Made by a program: the position numbers and the translations under genes. DNA of 50,179 nucleotides, taken from NCBI GenBank assembly GCA_021108405.1, contig JAIOQW010000120.1:1-50179 (forward strand), in the 5' to 3' direction. The notes beneath the pieces are model-generated. The model was not told where the DNA came from. It ran no database searches and saw only the letters and a program-made list of their open reading frames with translations. The stretch is from Methanosarcinales archaeon (GTDB lineage: Archaea; Halobacteriota; Methanosarcinia; Methanosarcinales; Methanocomedenaceae). Below are positions 7,019 through 38,803 of this stretch, piece by piece. The number at the start of each line of letters is the position of its first letter. The first letter of the stretch is position 1.

Positions 7019-7185
7019 TAGAACAAAATCCTCGCTATCGCTCGGATTTTCTTGACCGACATTCCAGAGGAATGGAGGATTAAAAGATTCGTAGAATCTT
7101 CGTCTGACATTCCAGAGGAATGGAGGATTAGAAAATGTGAATTGGGTGAGAATTTTCGATATATCGAGTTATACTTGATATACTA
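7019..7185. repeat. Hairpin-chain intergenic repeat after metG
   Basis: The copy starts with the AAAATCC/GGATTTT hairpin 4 bp after the metG stop. It then has two CATTCC-AGAGG-AATG modules, an AAGATTC/GAATCTT module, a GAAAATGT-type module and the TATATC/GATATA palindrome. The first hairpin is followed by T-rich sequence, so it could end the metG transcript. Confidence 0.75.
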
Positions 7186-11408: not shown

Positions 11409-12227
11409 TCACTTCATCTTCTTATATACACGCTCTGCAAGATTAACAGTTACAAATTGGTCTTTAGCATCTCCAATAAGTGATTCATTCTTACCCTGAA
11501 TAAAAAATCCGTTCTTTCGCAGCATATCATAGAAATTCAAGAACAGTTCTTTTTTCATATCCTCTTTAAAATAAATGATCACATTTCTACATAAGATCAG
11601 ATCATAAATAGGAGCTTTCTTATTAATACCGGTCAGGTCAAGAAAGCTGAACCTGATATGTTGTTTAACAGAAGGCTTGATCTCGTAATCATCTCCAACC
11701 GGTTGAAAATATTTATCTACCAGATCTTTTCGTATGCTTTTTACTTTATTTCCCTCATATATTCCTGTTTTAGCTGTTAGAATGCTTTTTCTATCAATAT
11801 CAGTACCATTGATCGAAACTTTAAATTTTTTATGTGACTTTTTAAGTCCTTCCAGGAATAGTATCGCAAGTGTATATGTCTCTTCTCCTGAGGAACAACC
11901 CGCACTCCATACTTTTATAACATCCGTGGAATCTGATTCCTTATTTGTTATTATTTGAGGTATAATGCTTTTTTCCAGGATATTAAAGGTCCCTGGGTTT
12001 CTGAAAAATTCAGTCACATTGATAGTAAGGGCATCTTTTAATTTACTAAGTTCATCCGGGTCTTTTTTCAATAATGCTATATATTCATTGATACTCTTTA
12101 CATGCGTAAGGCCCATTCTTGCATTAAGTCTTCGTTCAATATATCTGTCTTTATATTGAGTTATTTCAAAATGCAATTTATTTTGTATAAGATTTCTAAG
12201 GACCAGTAAATTGTCTTTATCATTCAT
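11409..12227 (-). CDS. cheR: Chemotaxis receptor methyltransferase CheR
   Basis: CheR transfers methyl groups from S-adenosylmethionine to glutamates of chemoreceptors. The 272-residue product has the all-helical N-terminal domain (INEYIALLKKDPDELSK), the TEFFRNP motif, the SAM-binding VWSAGCSSGEE and the ILCRNVIIYF and GKNESLIG motifs of the catalytic domain. It is on the same strand as the cheC-cheF block but is separated from it by a fossil MCP/CheW gene on the other strand. No intact receptor or cheB is in the window. Confidence 0.95.
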   Translation of the reverse strand: MNDKDNLLVLRNLIQNKLHFEITQYKDRYIERRLNARMGLTHVKSINEYIALLKKDPDELSKLKDALTINVTEFFRNPGTFNILEKSIIPQIITNKESDSTDVIKVWSAGCSSGEETYTLAILFLEGLKKSHKKFKVSINGTDIDRKSILTAKTGIYEGNKVKSIRKDLVDKYFQPVGDDYEIKPSVKQHIRFSFLDLTGINKKAPIYDLILCRNVIIYFKEDMKKELFLNFYDMLRKNGFFIQGKNESLIGDAKDQFVTVNLAERVYKKMK

Positions 12228-12380
12228 ATTTATTAAACCCTGTATTAGGAATATATGTGATTACATTATCAATAAATTTATGGATATATGGGATAAGTTT
12301 AAATATTGAATCTTATTATATTTGTTGTTAATTGCTTTAATTATTTAATTTGAAAGATAATTCTTTTAGAGGGGGTAAGC

Positions 12381-12944
12381 GTGAACGATATTAAACGTAT
12401 TATAAGAAGGAAACTTCTTATAAGTTTTTTGGTGTTTTCTGTATTAATGTTAATTATTGGCAGTATTTCTATATATATTATTGTTACGATGCAGGAAAAT
12501 ATAGATGAAATATTTGAAAACCATGAGCCATTCCTTTCATTATTAACAAATGACTATTTATTAATTAATGATAGTTACAGTCAGACCCTCCATTTTTTAT
12601 TAACAACTGATTATTCCACAAGACAGCAGATAAGATGAACTGTTATAACTGACACAACCAGGGTTATTATTACGGATTATAGAAAAGATCATATTGGTAT
12701 AATAGTTGATTCAATACTTGAAATAGCACTTGTGCCAGTTGATGAAATTGAAAATATACCTGAAGACTTGAAAGCCAGGGATTATGTAAAAGGGATATCT
12801 AAAAATGGTAATAAGATAGTAATTTTTATGGAGCTCGATAGTGTACTCAATACTGCCGCACTTAATAAAACCGAGAACAAAATCCGAGCATTAGCGAGGA
12901 TTTTGTTCTTCTCTGTGTACTTTATGGTTTTATCTTTTATGTAA
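12381..12944 (+). pseudogene. Fossil chimera of a chemoreceptor N-terminus and CheW C-terminus
   Basis: A GTG start after GAGGGGGTAAG opens 85 codons (MNDIKRIIRRKLLISF) with a signal-anchor helix and periplasmic-type start, as in methyl-accepting proteins. After an in-frame TGA (12636-12638) the same frame continues as the C-terminal part of CheW (IGIIVDSILEIALVPVDEIE, YVKGISKNGNKIVIFMELD). It then runs through a hairpin repeat into a TAA at 12942. The middle (receptor signalling domain and CheW N-terminus) is missing, so an internal deletion joined the two genes. It faces opposite to cheR and cheC. Confidence 0.78.
12875..12908. repeat. Single hairpin module inside the CheW fossil
   Basis: GAACAAAATCC (12875-12885) and GGATTTTGTTC (12898-12908) form a perfect 11-bp inverted repeat with a 12-base loop. 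It replaces the normal CheW end in the reading frame, so it inserted into, or was retained at, the gene end. Confidence 0.8.
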
Positions 12945-12978
12945 ATAATTTTGCTATTCCGGTTCAATCTGACCACAA

Positions 12979-13593
12979 TTATGCATGATAATCAATATTC
13001 TCAAACATATCAAAGACAGTCTGTAAATTACCAGGGTCAGGCATCAGCATGATATTGAAGTTGATATCCATGTTGATTATATTGAGCGTGCTGTTAAAAT
13101 AGACCACGAATTCCCCGGTCTTGGTTGCATCGCCCAGAGCTTTATCAATAATAGCATCTGAATAATCATATCCGAATTCAGGTGGATTATGTGTTAGTTC
13201 TATAGAGAAGGTATTTGCCCATACATCAATAAAGGCTGAGGTTATGATATTACATATCTCTACAGATGCCGACTTTTGCATATCATTGAATAGATCTTCT
13301 GATTCTTCATCAGGGAAATCTCCGATCAGTGCACTTGACAATTTCAAGGCACTATCAGGAGTTAATAACAAAAGCATTGTTCCATTAATATCCCCGTTAA
13401 AACGTGTATATAAAGCGACTATTTCTCCACTCCCTACTACTTCAGGGATCGAATGAATAGAAGACATATTCACGGCTGCTATTTTCATATCAACGTCCAT
13501 ATCAAGCATCATGGACAGAAATTCTATAGCTTGTTTGGCTCCGACATCGCCCATATATTTGAGCTGCATTAGTTTGTTTACTTCACCTTCCAT
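12979..13593 (-). CDS. cheC: CheC family CheY phosphatase, first copy
   Basis: CheC removes phosphate from CheY-P and often binds CheD. The 204-residue protein has one clear phosphatase motif with the conserved Glu and Asn (SASVEICNIITSAF, about residues 110-123); the second half is degenerate. The C-terminus ends MLMPDPGNLQTVFDMFENI, very like its paralogue at 14593-15216. It lies 17 bp downstream of cheY on the same strand, forming a cheY-cheC module that is duplicated in the cluster. Confidence 0.9.
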   Translation of the reverse strand: MEGEVNKLMQLKYMGDVGAKQAIEFLSMMLDMDVDMKIAAVNMSSIHSIPEVVGSGEIVALYTRFNGDINGTMLLLLTPDSALKLSSALIGDFPDEESEDLFNDMQKSASVEICNIITSAFIDVWANTFSIELTHNPPEFGYDYSDAIIDKALGDATKTGEFVVYFNSTLNIINMDINFNIMLMPDPGNLQTVFDMFENIDYHA

Positions 13594-13610
13594 TGTATAT
13601 TCCTCCTCTT

Positions 13611-13973
13611 TTATGCTGAAATAACACTCTTGATCTCTTGCAAGACCTTCGGTGCCTGGAATGGTTTATTTACATATCCTTTAGCTCCGGCACTAATTGC
13701 TTTTTTTATTTTCTCTTCCTGTCCGACCGAAGTGCACATAACAACTTTCGCTTCCGGATTTCGCTTCACGATATGTGATGTAGCTGTTATACCGTCCATT
13801 TTAGGCATTACTACATCCATTGTCACGATATCAGGATTTAGTTTTTCATACATTTTTACTGCTTCGATCCCATTGGTAGCTTCACCTACTACAGTAAATT
13901 CAGCTACTAATATTTTTTTGAGAAGTGCTCTCATAAACTGTGAGTCATCCACGATCATTATCTTTATTGGCAT
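13611..13973 (-). CDS. cheY: CheY response regulator, first copy
   Basis: This 120-residue single receiver domain has the acidic pair (IVDDSQFMR), the phosphorylated aspartate (DIVTMDVVMPKMDG, Asp about 53), the switch Thr/Ser (VMCTSVGQ) and the conserved Lys (VNKPF). In archaea CheY-P reaches the archaellum through CheF. The copy at 15250-15612 is nearly identical. A run of three hairpin modules lies just upstream of it. Confidence 0.95.
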   Translation of the reverse strand: MPIKIMIVDDSQFMRALLKKILVAEFTVVGEATNGIEAVKMYEKLNPDIVTMDVVMPKMDGITATSHIVKRNPEAKVVMCTSVGQEEKIKKAISAGAKGYVNKPFQAPKVLQEIKSVISA

Positions 13974-14028
13974 ATTGTATTTCTCCGGTTATGTTTTATT
14001 TTCCTATTTACTATTCCTTTTTTATAGT

Positions 14029-14083
14029 ATATCAAGTATAACTTTATATTGAAAATCCGAGCGTTAGCGAGGATTTTGTTTTA
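14029..14083. repeat. Hairpin-chain repeat between cheD and cheY
   Basis: A TATATCAAG-type module is followed by the AAAATCC/GGATTTT module in reversed orientation. It separates cheD from the downstream cheY and could attenuate transcription between the two halves of the chemotaxis cluster. Confidence 0.7.
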
Positions 14084-14087
14084 ATAA

Positions 14088-14573
14088 TTATAACACTATT
14101 ACTCCACGTCCGGCAGACCTGATCGAATATTTACCTGTAGTTACATCAAGTTCTACCGTACGCCCGTAATCAGCGCCTGTATCATCTGCTTTAAGATAGA
14201 TTTTTTTTTCTTTTAATTTTTTCTTGACAGCTGCCACATTTTCCTGACCTATCTTGAGAATACCATTCGCACCTTTGAACATGTGTGCTCCACCTGCGAT
14301 CTTTGCTATGATCTTTGAGGTATTAGCACCGAGAGCCTTCATCTTCTCAAGCATTTGATCTATTGAGCTATTCGCATACTTTGCCAGATTGATCTTTGTT
14401 CCTGCTGCTCTTTGCCTGGTATTGTCAGGGAGCATGATATGAGCTAATCCACCGATCTTTGTTGTCGGGTCATAAAGAGCTATTCCAACACACGAACCAA
14501 GGCCTACTGTGATAAGTTTTCCATTTTCTTTGGCTACCTTGAAGTCAGCCATCCCTACTTTAATAGAAGTCAT
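14088..14573 (-). CDS. cheD: Chemoreceptor glutamine deamidase CheD
   Basis: CheD deamidates receptor glutamines and stimulates CheC. The 161-residue protein shows the catalytic Cys-His-Thr arrangement of the family (GLGSCVGIALYD, LAHIMLPDN), the KIAGGAHMF motif and the ELDVTTGK end. It lies directly downstream (20 bp) of the second cheC copy, matching the known CheC-CheD partnership. Confidence 0.95.
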   Translation of the reverse strand: MTSIKVGMADFKVAKENGKLITVGLGSCVGIALYDPTTKIGGLAHIMLPDNTRQRAAGTKINLAKYANSSIDQMLEKMKALGANTSKIIAKIAGGAHMFKGANGILKIGQENVAAVKKKLKEKKIYLKADDTGADYGRTVELDVTTGKYSIRSAGRGVIVL

Positions 14574-14592
14574 CGTTTTTGCTTCCGGGATG

Positions 14593-15216
14593 TTATTCAG
14601 TTACTGATTCCGGTTCTACGTTTTCAAACAGGTCAAATACCTTCTGAAGACTTTCAGGGTCAGGCATCATTAGAATATTGAAATCAATATCCATATTGGT
14701 CACATTTAGAGTGCTGTTGAAGAATATTACAAAATCACCACTCTGGGAAGCTTCGATCAGGACATTATCCACAATAGCATCTGCAAAATCATAGGTAAAT
14801 GATGGAGGTTCGTGAGAAAGTTCGATACCGAATGTATCAGCCCATACATCTACAAATGATGATGTGATAATATTACCAATTTCTGCTGCTGCAGACTGCT
14901 GCATTTCATCAAACATCCCATCGGATTCCTCTTCATCGAAATCACCAAGTAGTACACTTGCAATTTTTTTTGTGCTATCGGGACTTAATAGACAGAACAT
15001 GGATCCTGAAACTGTACCCATAAATGGTGAAAATAGTGATACTACTTCATCACTACCTACAATATCAGGTATAGTGATCAGTGAAACCATATTCACTGAA
15101 GATATGTTCATGTTAACATCCGTATCAAGCATCATGGATAAGGATTCTACTGCGCGCTCGGCTCCCTTATCGCCCATGATCTTGAAATGAATTAATTTAT
15201 TTACTTCGCCTTCCAT
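14593..15216 (-). CDS. cheC: CheC family CheY phosphatase, second copy
   Basis: This 207-residue paralogue of the protein at 12979-13593 shares its start MEGEVNKL and its layout. The phosphatase motif is SAAAEIGNIITSSF, with Glu and Asn in place. It lies between cheY and cheD with short spacers. Two divergent CheC copies in one cluster suggest that one acts as the phosphatase while the other regulates CheD or localises to the motor; this split is inference. Confidence 0.92.
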   Translation of the reverse strand: MEGEVNKLIHFKIMGDKGAERAVESLSMMLDTDVNMNISSVNMVSLITIPDIVGSDEVVSLFSPFMGTVSGSMFCLLSPDSTKKIASVLLGDFDEEESDGMFDEMQQSAAAEIGNIITSSFVDVWADTFGIELSHEPPSFTYDFADAIVDNVLIEASQSGDFVIFFNSTLNVTNMDIDFNILMMPDPESLQKVFDLFENVEPESVTE

Positions 15217-15249
15217 TTTAACTATCTCCGTTTTTGTTTTTTTTGTTTT

Positions 15250-15612
15250 TTAAGCTGTTAGTACACTCTTGATCTCTTGCAGGACCTTAGGACCCTGGAA
15301 TGGTTTATTCACATAACCTTTTGCTCCGGCAGCAATGGCTTTTTTGATCTTTTCTTCCTGTCCGACCGAAGTGCACATAATTACTTTTGCATCCGGGTTT
15401 CGTTTCACAATATGTGATGTAGCAGTTATTCCATCCATCTTTGGCATTACTACATCCATGGTCACGATATCCGGTTTTAATTTTTCATACATTTTTACTG
15501 CTTCAATTCCATTAGTAGCTTCACCCACTACAGTATATTCGGCCATTACTATCTTTTTAAGAAGCGCCCTCATAAACTGTGAGTCATCTACTATCATTAG
15601 TTTTACTGCCAT
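15250..15612 (-). CDS. cheY: CheY response regulator, second copy
   Basis: This 120-residue receiver has the full active site (IVDDSQFMR, VTMDVVMPKMDG, CTSVGQEEK, VNKPF). It differs from the first copy at only a few positions, so the cheY-cheC module was duplicated. It follows cheF by 12 bp. Confidence 0.95.
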   Translation of the reverse strand: MAVKLMIVDDSQFMRALLKKIVMAEYTVVGEATNGIEAVKMYEKLKPDIVTMDVVMPKMDGITATSHIVKRNPDAKVIMCTSVGQEEKIKKAIAAGAKGYVNKPFQGPKVLQEIKSVLTA

Positions 15613-15624
15613 ACGTTATTTCTC

Positions 15625-16575
15625 CTAATATAATGGTTTATCAACTTCATCTTTGACTTTCATTTTTTGGTTAACAATAGTCCTGCCTTTAGTAGAAAGC
15701 TCTACTTCTTGCCTGACTCTTACTAAGCTCAATAGACCGAGTTTTATTAATCGTTCATATATTTTTTCAAGTTCATTTACATCCATCTCAAGCATAGTGT
15801 TTATCTCAAGTGATGATATTTCCGAATATAAAGCAACAAGTATCTGTTCCTCCATATCCGACACTTTAAGATCTTTATCACTCCACTCAGCCGACATCAG
15901 GCTATTTGATTTCGGTACTAATCCCATGCTTTCAAGATGGTTCTTCAAGTACCGCATCAATGCAGTCAGGATCTTGTTGTTGGCTGTAAGATAGGATGTA
16001 TATGTCTCATTATTTGCACGATGTTTTATGTTCATCACAGACTGGACATTCTTCTTGACCTGACGCTGCTCAAGCTCAACAGATTCTATAGTATCAAGTA
16101 GAAAACCTGCATTGTCTTTTGAATCTTTTATAACAACAATTTTTTCACTGCCACTTTTCTTATCTTTTAGAAAAGCAAGCCGTCCTTCATCCCATGTTGA
16201 GGTATCATTAATTGCCCCTCCTACTAGTGCAGGATGTTTCACGATCACTGGTTTACTGTGAAGCATGAGAAGCAGTATATTGCGTTCCAGTTTGGCCAGA
16301 TGTTTCGGATGAGATGTAATTATTGTCATAATTTTTTTACCTTTATCAGTATGACTGAGTGAAAGGTAATTTTTTACACCTTTGGTAATCTGTTTAGGGA
16401 CTTGCTGACCTACATTGTCAATTGAAGGAAAAGCAATACCGGAATTACCCAGGATAATAGCATCAGAACGAAGGGCAACTACACCAAGGACCCACTTTTT
16501 AGGGTTGGTAGCACCCATATCAAGACCGTAGATATACTTCGCTTTTATTTTTGTTAATATTTTAGGCTTGACCAA
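15625..16575 (-). CDS. cheF: Archaeal taxis protein CheF
   Basis: CheF is an archaea-specific adaptor linking CheY-P (with CheC/CheD) to the archaellum motor. The 316-residue product begins with a beta-rich region (YIYGLDMGATNPKKWVLGVVAL). It ends in a winged helix (EEQILVALYSEISSLEINTM, about 250-305), consistent with the known two PH-like domains plus wHTH of CheF. It is the first gene of cheF-cheY-cheC-cheD, its usual neighbours. The start is TTG at 16575 preceded by GGAAGCG; no better ATG exists. There is no archaellum gene in the window. Confidence 0.82.
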   Translation of the reverse strand: MVKPKILTKIKAKYIYGLDMGATNPKKWVLGVVALRSDAIILGNSGIAFPSIDNVGQQVPKQITKGVKNYLSLSHTDKGKKIMTIITSHPKHLAKLERNILLLMLHSKPVIVKHPALVGGAINDTSTWDEGRLAFLKDKKSGSEKIVVIKDSKDNAGFLLDTIESVELEQRQVKKNVQSVMNIKHRANNETYTSYLTANNKILTALMRYLKNHLESMGLVPKSNSLMSAEWSDKDLKVSDMEEQILVALYSEISSLEINTMLEMDVNELEKIYERLIKLGLLSLVRVRQEVELSTKGRTIVNQKMKVKDEVDKPLY

Positions 16576-16698: not shown

Positions 16699-16832
16699 AA
16701 ACAAAATCCTCGCTAACGCTCGGATTTTCTTGACTGAGGCTCTTAAATGAGCCGAAGATTAGAAGATTCGTAGAATCTTCGTCCGACATTCCAGAGGAAT
16801 GGGGGATTAAAAAATGCTCATTTCATTCGCTT
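16699..16832. repeat. Hairpin-chain repeat upstream of cheF
   Basis: This copy has the modules in the order AAAATCC/GGATTTT, GGCTCTT/AGAGCC (imperfect), AGATTCG/CGAATCT, CATTCC/GGAATG and a partial AATGCTCATTT end. It occupies most of the cheF-regulator gap. Unlike most copies it is on the 5' side of a gene. Confidence 0.7.
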
Positions 16833-16989: not shown

Positions 16990-17316
16990 ATGGACATAAC
17001 AACAAGGGGAGTACAATATTCGCAGATATTGCGTTCACTAAAAAAAAGTAGAGTACGTACCGAGATTATGATGTATCTATATAAGATTTATCCGAATTCA
17101 TCTTATCCTTCTGATATTTCCAGGCAAACAAGAATAGATCCTACAAACGTCATTGGTGGACTGCGCGGTATGGGAAGTAGATATAATGAGACAAATTCAC
17201 TTCTAGGAGTAAAACTGGTAGAACCAGTTCAACTTGATGGTTCCACATATTATAAACTAACTGAAACTGGAAAAAAATTGATAGAAAGTATGGAATTGAT
17301 CAGACATTTGAATTAA
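16990..17316 (+). CDS. Winged-helix transcriptional regulator
   Basis: The 108-residue protein is a compact wHTH: RVRTEIMMYLYKIYPNSSYPSDISRQTRIDPTNVIGGLRGM (about residues 20-60) is the helix-turn-helix with a recognition helix. The following LVEPVQLDGSTYYKLTETGKKL is the beta wing and dimerisation start. No ligand or sensor domain is visible. It is transcribed alone, divergent from cheF, with palindromic sites in its own promoter. It could regulate itself and the chemotaxis block; this is inference from position. Confidence 0.8.
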   Translation: MDITTRGVQYSQILRSLKKSRVRTEIMMYLYKIYPNSSYPSDISRQTRIDPTNVIGGLRGMGSRYNETNSLLGVKLVEPVQLDGSTYYKLTETGKKLIESMELIRHLN

Positions 17317-22774: not shown

Positions 22775-22776
22775 AT

Positions 22777-22803
22777 AATCCGAGTTTTAGCGAGGATTTT
22801 GTT
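22777..22803. repeat. Hairpin module directly after ccmB
   Basis: ATCCGAGTTTTAGCGAGGAT followed by TTTGTTT, starting 3 bp after the ccmB stop. The T-rich end makes it a candidate terminator; it is a degenerate single module of the hairpin family. Confidence 0.6.
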
Positions 22804-27942: not shown

Positions 27943-28015
27943 GGTCGGATTTTCTAATCCTCCATTCCTCCGGAATGTCGGTCAAGAAAATCCGAGCGTT
28001 AACGAGGATTTTAAT
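27943..28015. repeat. Hairpin-chain repeat after the acidic protein
   Basis: It contains GGTCGGATTTT, CATTCC-TCC-GGAATG and a reversed AAAATCC/GGATTTT module (GAAAATCCGAGCGTTAACGAGG). The remaining gap to about 28200 holds no gene. Confidence 0.65.
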
Positions 28016-29351: not shown

Positions 29352-29558
29352 ATATATCAAGTATAACTTGATATATCGAAAATGCTCACTTCGTTCACAT
29401 TTTCTAATCCTCCATTCCTCCTGTATGTCGAACGAAGATTCTATGAATCCTCCATTCCTCCTGTATGTCGAACGAAGATTCTATGAATCTTCTATTCCTC
29501 CATTCCTCCTGAATGTCAGTCAAGAAAATCCAACCCTTAGCGAGGATTTTGTTCTAGT
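29352..29558. repeat. Longest hairpin-chain repeat, with a tandem sub-repeat
   Basis: Modules in order: TATATCAAG/CTTGATATA, GAAAATGCTCACTTCGTTCACATTTTC, then two tandem copies of a 49-bp block (TCCTCCATTCCTCCTGTATGTCGAACGAAGATTCTATGAA) and a third partial one. A reversed AAAATCC/GGATTTT module ends inside the next gene. The tandem blocks show how these arrays grow. Confidence 0.75.
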
Positions 29559-31474: not shown

Positions 31475-31624
31475 TTATGCTGCCAGGACATTTTTGATCT
31501 CTTGTATAACTTTAGATCCTATAAATGGTTTATTAATATATCCTTTAGCACCTAAAGCCAGTGCTTCTTTAATCTTTTCTTCCTCTTCTACCGAAGAACA
31601 AATAACGATTTTGGCTTCATTATC
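31475..31624 (-). pseudogene. CheY C-terminal fragment
   Basis: The minus strand encodes DNEAKIVICSSVEEEEKIKEALALGAKGYINKPFIGSKVIQEIKNVLAA and a stop. That is the last 50 residues of a CheY receiver including the conserved Lys (NKP), about 60% like the two intact copies. The N-terminal half with the phosphorylation site is gone. Confidence 0.85.
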
Positions 31625-31630
31625 AAATCA

Positions 31631-31732
31631 TTCGATTCGACAATAGAACGGATGAAAGGTTTCTCTGGTGCTACTATTCTCGGAGATGGGAATGTTGTAT
31701 TGATAATGGATGTTAACAGTATAGTTGCGTAA
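31631..31732 (+). pseudogene. CheA C-terminal fragment
   Basis: The plus strand reads FDSTIERMKGFSGATILGDGNVVLIMDVNSIVA then TAA, the invariant end of the CheA regulatory (CheW-like) domain. It abuts the CheY fragment in the opposite direction. It shows that a full signalling kinase once stood here. Confidence 0.85.
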
Positions 31733-33391: not shown

Positions 33392-33877
33392 ATGGATCAA
33401 AAAATACATGGCAGAATATGGAAGTTCGGTGATCATATAGATACGGATGTGATCATCCCCGGAAAATATTTAAGGACCACTGATATGATGGTATTTGCCG
33501 GGCATGCTATGGAAGGTATCGACCCTGATTTTTCCAGTAATGTTCGTAAGGGTGATATTATAGTAGCAGGTGAGAATTTCGGATGCGGCTCGTCACGTGA
33601 ACAGGCACCATTGGCACTGAAACATGCAGGTATATCCTGTGTAGTGGCCAGGTCATTTGCAAGGATATTTTTCAGGAACGCTATTAATGTAGGTCTTCCT
33701 ATCATAGAAGCAGATATTGAGTGCGCCCAGGGTGATTTGTGCAATATTGATCTGCAGCAGGGTAAGATCCAGTGCGGCGATAATGTTTATTCAGGGACAA
33801 AGCTTCCTGGTTTTTTACTTGAGATACTTACTGATGGCGGTCTGGTAGCTCATAGAAAAAAACTTAATACAAACTGA
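33392..33877 (+). CDS. aksE: Methanogen homoaconitase small subunit
   Basis: The 161-residue swivel-domain protein has [17 protein letters not shown] with YLRT at residues 26-29, and [16 protein letters not shown] (about 69-84). In methanogens YLRT marks the homoaconitase small subunit of coenzyme B synthesis (2-oxosuberate pathway), whereas isopropylmalate isomerase carries YLVY. The large subunit is not in the window. GGTGA lies 7 bp upstream of the ATG, inside the previous gene. The operon continues with an unknown gene and aksF. Confidence 0.88.
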
Positions 33878-34765: not shown

Positions 34766-35789
34766 AATAAAAATAGCAGTTATCGAAGGCGACGGCATTG
34801 GTAAGGAAGTAATACCTGCAGCAGTGGATGTGCTTCATGCTGTGGGGCTGGATTTTGAGAGTGTACCCGTTGAGGTAGGATATGGTAAATGGAAGCGTAC
34901 AGGGCAGGCAATGGATGAACATGACCTGGATATTATACGAAGTTGTAAATGTATTCTCTTTGGAGCTATTACTACACCCAATGATCCTGATTATAAGAGT
35001 GTTCTGGTACGTATCAGGCAGGAAATTGGGCTTTATGCCAACATCAGGCCTTTCAGATCACTGAATATCACAATAGATTCACCGTTAAAGCCAGGACATC
35101 CGTTTGATTTTCTTATTGTACGTGAGAATACCGAAGGATTATATGCCGGTATAGAAGAGTTTTCCGAGGATAGGGCCTGCACGACAAAGCTAGTAACAAA
35201 AAAAGGTACTGTCCGTATTGCTAAAATGGCATGCAAATTGGCAAAAGAGCGAAAGAACAGACTGACTATTGTCCATAAAGCAAATGTAATCAAATCATGT
35301 AAATTCTTTAGAGATATATGTATGGATATTGCTAAACAGAATAGTGTTCAATATAATGAAATGTTGGTAGATGCCATGGCTTATAACCTTATACTTAACC
35401 CTGAGAAATATGATGTGCTGGTAATGTCCAATTTATTTGGCGATATTCTCAGTGATATGTCTGCTGCACTTGTGGGCAGTCTTGGTCTATGCCCGAGCAG
35501 CAATATTGGAGAGGAGCATGCCCTCTTTGAACCTGTTCATGGTTCTGCACCTGATATTGCAGGAAAAGGTATTGCTAATCCAATAGCTGCTATTTTAAGT
35601 GTAAAACTATTATTAACCTGGGTACAGGAATTTGAAAAGGCTGATCTGGTACAGGAAGCTGTGGATCATGTGCTTGAGAATGGTATCAGGACTATTGACC
35701 TTGGAGGTTCCGGATCCACAACAGATGTATCTGGTGCGGTTATTGACTATATAAAAACAAAATCCTCGCTAGCGCTCGGATTTTCTTGA
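34758..35789 (+). CDS. aksF: Isohomocitrate/isopropylmalate dehydrogenase family
   Basis: The 343-residue NAD-dependent decarboxylating dehydrogenase has AVIEGDGIGKEV, RPFRSL, VRENTEGLYAGIEE, HKANVIKSC, DAMAYNLILNP, MSNLFGDILSDMSAALVGSLG and FEPVHGSAPDIAGKGIANP. Next to aksE it is best read as the isohomocitrate dehydrogenase of the coenzyme B pathway; LeuB cannot be excluded from sequence alone. ATG 34758 lies after GGTGAAAAAA, so the GTG at 34749 is not the start. The last 12 residues (IKTKSSLALGFS) and stop come from an intergenic hairpin repeat. Confidence 0.88.
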   Translation: MNKIKIAVIEGDGIGKEVIPAAVDVLHAVGLDFESVPVEVGYGKWKRTGQAMDEHDLDIIRSCKCILFGAITTPNDPDYKSVLVRIRQEIGLYANIRPFRSLNITIDSPLKPGHPFDFLIVRENTEGLYAGIEEFSEDRACTTKLVTKKGTVRIAKMACKLAKERKNRLTIVHKANVIKSCKFFRDICMDIAKQNSVQYNEMLVDAMAYNLILNPEKYDVLVMSNLFGDILSDMSAALVGSLGLCPSSNIGEEHALFEPVHGSAPDIAGKGIANPIAAILSVKLLLTWVQEFEKADLVQEAVDHVLENGIRTIDLGGSGSTTDVSGAVIDYIKTKSSLALGFS

Positions 35790-38741: not shown

Positions 38742-38803
38742 AACAAAATCCTCGCTAGCGCTCGGATTTTCTTGAGTACATCAAGTTATACTTGATATAC
38801 TAC
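38742..38803. repeat. Hairpin-chain repeat before the YgiQ gene
   Basis: AAAATCC/GGATTTT module then a TATATC/GATATA palindrome, ending about 60 bp before the gene. It is one of few copies placed 5' of a gene. Confidence 0.7.

Follow-up and report, generated by a model that had tools for sequence, protein, structure and literature searches.

A CheF-containing chemotaxis block and two deletion scars in a Methanosarcinales archaeon whose draft assembly contains no CheA or CheB gene

Introduction

In chemotaxis, the kinase CheA couples receptors to the response regulator. The window analyzed here, which is the whole of contig C9 (50,179 nucleotides) of a draft Methanosarcinales assembly (3.67 Mb, 363 contigs, 99.01% complete, 1.95% contaminated), carries a chemotaxis block with cheF and holds no intact cheA, cheB, cheW or receptor (MCP) gene. 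This raises the question of what drives CheY and CheF in this organism. An earlier note, made from the sequence of the window alone, had proposed that either the receptors and the kinase are encoded elsewhere or CheY and CheF serve another circuit.

In the known chain, CheY that has been phosphorylated by CheA (CheY-P) docks onto the C-terminal domain of a dimeric CheF, which in turn acts on ArlCDE (PMC9126983, PMC9680633). Literature searches on ANME chemotaxis together with the archaellum gave no paper, and no chemotaxis appears in the main text of a large comparative genomics paper on ANME (PMC9012536).

Results

The output side of the system is intact

The che block at 11409-16575 consists of seven minus-strand genes, each a full-length open reading frame with the expected Pfam domain, and a divergent regulator gene lies beside it:

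11409..12227, minus strand: cheR, intact MCP methyltransferase (Pfam CheR E 2.4e-51)
12979..13593, minus strand: cheC1, CheY-P phosphatase (CheX E 8.4e-7, CheC E 3.6e-4)
13611..13973, minus strand: cheY1, single receiver domain (Response_reg E 4e-30)
14088..14573, minus strand: cheD, receptor deamidase and CheC partner (CheD E 1.8e-30; Cys and His motif present)
14593..15216, minus strand: cheC2 (CheC E 6.5e-10; 55% to the cheC of relative G001)
15250..15612, minus strand: cheY2 (Response_reg E 2.1e-29; 69% to the cheY of G001)
15625..16575, minus strand: cheF, adaptor linking CheY-P with the archaellum switch (CheF-arch E 2.6e-22; C-terminal domain kept)
16990..17316, plus strand: winged-helix EarA-like regulator, oriented divergently to the che block (EarA E 2.8e-27)

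The genes are arranged as cheF-cheY2-cheC2-cheD and cheY1-cheC1, with cheR past the first of the scars described below. CheF scored 80.1 bits against CheF-arch (PF04283; curated cut-off 25) and retains the CheY-binding C-terminal domain. Its family profile matched the solved CheF structures 7ovp and 7od9, and a chance match is ruled out by these matches and the score. The CheC and CheD partners are both represented, CheC by its fold with the E..N phosphatase motif and CheD by its Cys/His motif; the E and N were kept in the alignment of cheC1, and the family profile matched CheC structures. The phosphorylatable Asp and the conserved Thr and Lys of CheY are also present (D9, D10, D53, Thr and K103 in the alignment of cheY1), and cheY1 scored 173.5 bits against the CheY_Halo model, under its cut-off of 200.

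The duplication reported in the earlier note is real for cheY and cheC, and its description of CheY, CheC, CheD, CheF and CheR as an intact output side was borne out at these positions. The two cheY genes are 86% identical over 300 nt (89% in protein; dN 0.053, dS 0.80, dN/dS about 0.07), and cheC1 and cheC2 are 58% identical. In a CheC alignment scan, the relatives in named genomes were ANME-2 cluster archaea and ANME-2c Methanosarcinales; a protein scan of genome contigs with CheF gave no match, possibly because the genome's own and closely related records were excluded from it. In relatives, homologues of the EarA-like regulator adjoin cheY; in the same assembly, a paralogue with 77% identity is the first gene of an archaellum operon on contig C48.

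A 26-base near-palindromic repeat (AAAATCCGAGCGTTAGCGAGGATTTT) was observed in 10 copies in the window with at most 3 mismatches, where none would be expected by chance:

1881-1906, 7025-7050, 12879-12904, 14052-14077, 16703-16728, 22775-22800, 27987-28012, 29525-29550, 35759-35784 and 38745-38770: copies of the 26-base repeat

Three of these copies flank che modules and may have played a role in their rearrangement.

Two scars preserve parts of the sensing side

In ANME-2-type relatives of the family, receptor, cheW, cheB and cheA genes stand together in intact clusters, of which two types occur. In G001 (type A) the order is MCP-cheW-cheB-cheA with a divergent cheR, and in G038 and G030 (type B) it is MCP-cheW-cheY-cheB-cheA. 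Some relatives, such as G050 and G038, have two che clusters. The earlier note had described fossils of the sensing side within the che block and near 31.5 kb, and both were recovered as scars composed of two gene remnants each:

12381..12638, plus strand: scar 1, left half, N-terminal end of a type-B MCP with a four-helix-bundle sensor, closed by a TGA close to the deletion junction (4HB_MCP_1 E 3e-8)
12639..12863, plus strand: scar 1, right half, end of a type-B CheW, in frame with the left half (CheW profile match at 12627-12854, E 4.7e-9)
31475..31618, minus strand: scar 2, left half, 3' remnant of a cheY comprising 47 codons and the stop (66% identical to cheY2 across 47 aa)
31619..31732, plus strand: scar 2, right half, 3' remnant of a cheA comprising 37 codons and the stop (CheA profile E 1.3e-11, model positions 643-678 of 680)

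Scar 1 thus reads as MCP codons 1-85, a TGA and the last part of CheW in one frame. Its MCP half is 50% identical over 86 aa to the G038 MCP and its CheW half 46% identical over 56 aa to the G030 CheW, and both halves are nearest to type-B clusters (G005, G038, G030). In tblastn comparisons with relatives, the nearest counterpart of the block cheR was the cheR divergent from the type-B MCP (61% to G038); this divergent arrangement, present in G005 and G038, matches the layout of cheR and scar 1 in the window. In scar 2, the 3' remnant of the minus-strand cheY abuts the plus-strand cheA tail exactly. The CheA tail is of type A and scar 1 of type B, so that both cluster types have been cut down in this genome. 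An assembly chimera at scar 2 was considered and is unlikely, because the two halves abut exactly and no other CheA fragment lies at any contig end.

Outside the junction TGA, none of the 194 fossil codons is a stop. Most differences between the CheA tail and its counterpart in G020, the genus's only other genome, fall at third positions. In a small neutral-decay simulation, 0.1 substitutions per site produced 1.2 stops on average, and 0.2 produced 2.2. Read against these means, the lack of stops and the third-position differences indicate that the scars are young, with a loose bound on their age.

Scar 2 is separated by 1.7 kb from a leuD gene (33392-33877). The proximity of leuC and leuD to che or archaellum genes in some ANME-2c genomes hints that scar 2 may mark a former che location.

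Receptors and CheW, but no kinase, are found elsewhere in the assembly

No cheA gene was detected in the whole assembly with PF02895 or with a CheA profile built from ten relatives. With the latter profile, the 37-residue tail in the window was the only CheA sequence; the other matches were much weaker and corresponded to ATPase parts of ordinary histidine kinases and one CheW. CheB and the Hpt domain (PF01627) were likewise not found anywhere in the assembly, whereas the same searches gave positives in named control archaea. We also looked for an intact cheA-cheB-MCP cluster nearby and found none.

Contig C7 carries two intact tandem MCP-cheW pairs (L006:11801-19374; 1147, 165, 1015 and 165 aa), and the hairpin signalling tip of both receptors is intact. 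The duplication dS of about 0.16-0.22 indicates that the pairs arose by recent duplication; dN/dS of the MCP pair is about 0.36. About 600 bases upstream of a receptor gene the contig stops, in what resembles the end of an insertion sequence. Downstream of cheW, at the site occupied by cheB-cheA in relatives, lies an unrelated gene.

Compared with a canonical Che system, the assembly thus holds receptors with intact tips together with CheW, and of the adaptation pair CheR and CheB it holds CheR; it holds no CheA with Hpt, dimerisation and ATPase domains. The earlier statement that cheA, cheB, cheW and receptors are missing is correct for the window and extends to the assembly for cheA and cheB; for cheW and receptors it does not extend that far, and the view of a sensing side reduced to fossils applies, within this assembly, to CheA and CheB. 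Likewise, the suggestion that receptors and kinase lie elsewhere was right for the receptors, which are accompanied by CheW, and was not borne out for the kinase in this assembly.

Two archaellum loci are present

The genome-wide search that the earlier note had proposed as a check, for cheA, receptor and archaellum genes, also returned archaellins at two loci, on contigs C45 and C48. The C45 locus (L080) contains four archaellins, ArlF, ArlG, ArlH, ArlI and ArlJ and an adjoining fused ArlC-ArlD/E (FlaC/FlaD-E) protein, and all components expected of a euryarchaeal archaellum (archaellins, ArlCDE, ArlF, ArlG, ArlH, ArlI, ArlJ) are present in this one locus. The C48 locus contains two archaellins, ArlF to ArlJ with a split ArlJ, and a divergent ArlC/E-like protein that was identified by its position and its similarity to proteins at the same place elsewhere.

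The C48 operon (L081:4766-11069) runs in one direction from the EarA-like regulator through two receivers, a HisKA kinase and a PAS-HisKA kinase to the archaellins and motor genes. None of six comparable operons elsewhere in the order whose upstream side was readable carried such a kinase/receiver insert. The C48 receivers are 36-42% identical to cheY2, and one of them scored 93 bits against the archaeal CheY model (cut-off 200).

Within C48, arlJ (L081:412-1943) is split into two overlapping open reading frames of 373 and 137 aa by an apparent frameshift or sequencing error. Separately, about six histidine kinase genes in the same direction, interspersed with other genes, were observed on contig C10 (L082, about 27.9-39.7 kb).

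The gene content is uncommon among relatives

Within the family, MCP was detected in 8 of 17 genomes, and this genome (G000) is the only one of the eight without CheA. It is also the only genome of the family with CheF. Several family members, such as G001, G005, G046 and G054, have che clusters and no archaellins. In an order-level sample of 150 genomes, CheF was present in 23 (one below the curated cut-off), and all 22 CheF-bearing genomes other than this one have CheA. MCP was above cut-off in 101 genomes of the sample, five of which have no CheA (G000, G063, G077, G083 and G105); the other four carry one weaker MCP each.

G020 has no MCP, and its CheA lacks Hpt and has a gap in the ATPase domain. 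The gene (L046:4526-6016, contig C224) adjoins a probable multihaem cytochrome, and an ambiguous base lies at the ATPase gap. Kinase decay thus appears to be seen twice in the genus, in this genome and in G020, with the ambiguous base as a reservation for the latter.

Discussion

We consider it somewhat more probable than all other readings combined (about 55%) that the CheA-CheB core was recently lost by deletion, which would have left receptors and the CheY-CheF-ArlCDE output disconnected. Such a loss would probably be both recent and uncommon, and would not amount to a system of a new kind. The block would represent the output and adaptation half, in which CheY-P would act through CheF on the ArlCDE switch, CheC and CheD would serve dephosphorylation and receptor deamidation, and CheR would methylate receptors. 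Deletion would have removed CheA and CheB, and receptors could then no longer phosphorylate CheY, so that receptor-driven steering would be disconnected and the motor would run with an unsteered or otherwise controlled switch. Judging from the intact genes, motility would persist. The genome retains two receptor-CheW pairs, the che block and a complete ArlCDE archaellum locus; in this assembly the chain is present from CheY onward, and the CheA step is missing. The remaining genes may be kept mainly because the loss is recent. They appear to be constrained (dN/dS about 0.07 for the cheY pair and about 0.36 for the MCP pair), which would fit both present use and recent loss. The gene duplications have dS values of 0.16 to 1.7 and are probably older than the kinase loss; dN/dS therefore cannot decide between the two.

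Against a recent loss, the absence of CheA rests on one draft assembly of 363 contigs. Because C7 ends at an insertion-sequence-like element near a receptor gene, a cheA-cheB segment could be missing from it. A kinase missed by assembly or binning is rather unlikely in our estimate; a second cheB-cheA would then lie on a segment that was not assembled or not binned, the system would be complete, and the scars would be remnants of redundant clusters. Everything else in the pathway is intact, and since some relatives have two clusters (G050, G038), one loss need not be a total loss. However, completeness is 99.01%, and the C7 site downstream of cheW is present and occupied by another gene. The absence of Hpt and CheB, the lack of CheA fragments at contig ends apart from the tail in the window, and the lack of a functional-looking CheA in G020 of the same genus also argue against a missed kinase.

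The other circuit raised by the earlier note is possible. The C48 HisKA kinases and receivers, or other soluble kinases, might feed CheY and CheF or act directly on the switch. The two receivers and two HisKA kinases ahead of the archaellins, an insert without counterpart in the six operons of the same type, and the EarA paralogues beside both the che block and the C48 operon point in this direction, and an alternative input to CheY from the C48 kinases is plausible. Their neighbouring receivers would nevertheless be more natural partners: given their limited identity to cheY2 and the low CheY score, the kinases may serve those receivers only, and the apparent frameshift in the C48 arlJ also speaks against this input, which we regard as unlikely. 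The more specific proposal that the lineage dropped CheA and that HisKA-type kinases, including the two in the archaellum operon, drive CheY-CheF-ArlCDE, with receptors and CheW idle or coupled to those kinases, seems quite improbable. Least credible is a non-motility role of the retained genes, in type IV pili, gene regulation or aggregate formation, with archaella incidental. Family members with che clusters and no archaellins suggest that Che can serve other ends, but CheF is an archaellum adaptor found within the family only here, in a genome with two archaellum loci.

A genome in which the kinase was deleted, the scar is readable and the rest is kept would permit a direct test of CheY-CheF input from other kinases, or would reveal the order in which chemotaxis decays in consortium-living methane oxidisers. 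The finding would be ordinary if the assembly had merely missed the kinase.

Compared with the system of Haloferax, Halobacterium and Methanococcus maripaludis, the same CheY, CheC, CheD, CheR and CheF and an ArlCDE archaellum are present here (PMC9126983, PMC2666748), and the CheF profile matches the M. maripaludis CheF structure. In contrast to those organisms, this assembly contains no CheA or CheB, and cheY and cheC are doubled. Among ANME-2 che clusters, the cheY-cheC-cheD genes are homologous to type A (G001/G050; about 53-69% identity) and cheR to type B (G005/G038; 61%), an EarA-like neighbour is likewise present, and cheF is shared with the ANME-2c type (33-37% identity). These relatives hold MCP-cheW-cheB-cheA together, whereas here two scars remain and MCP-cheW lies on another contig. 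Among MCP-bearing archaeal strains, 4% were reported to have no CheA or CheW (PMC9680633), with which our 5 of 101 MCP-positive genomes without CheA agrees. The present genome resembles those strains in its receptor-positive, kinase-negative gene content and differs from them in its visible genetic scar and its retention of a complete CheF output and archaellum. Such kinase-less receptor gene content is already known in about 4-5% of receptor-bearing archaea, and this case is a variant of it.
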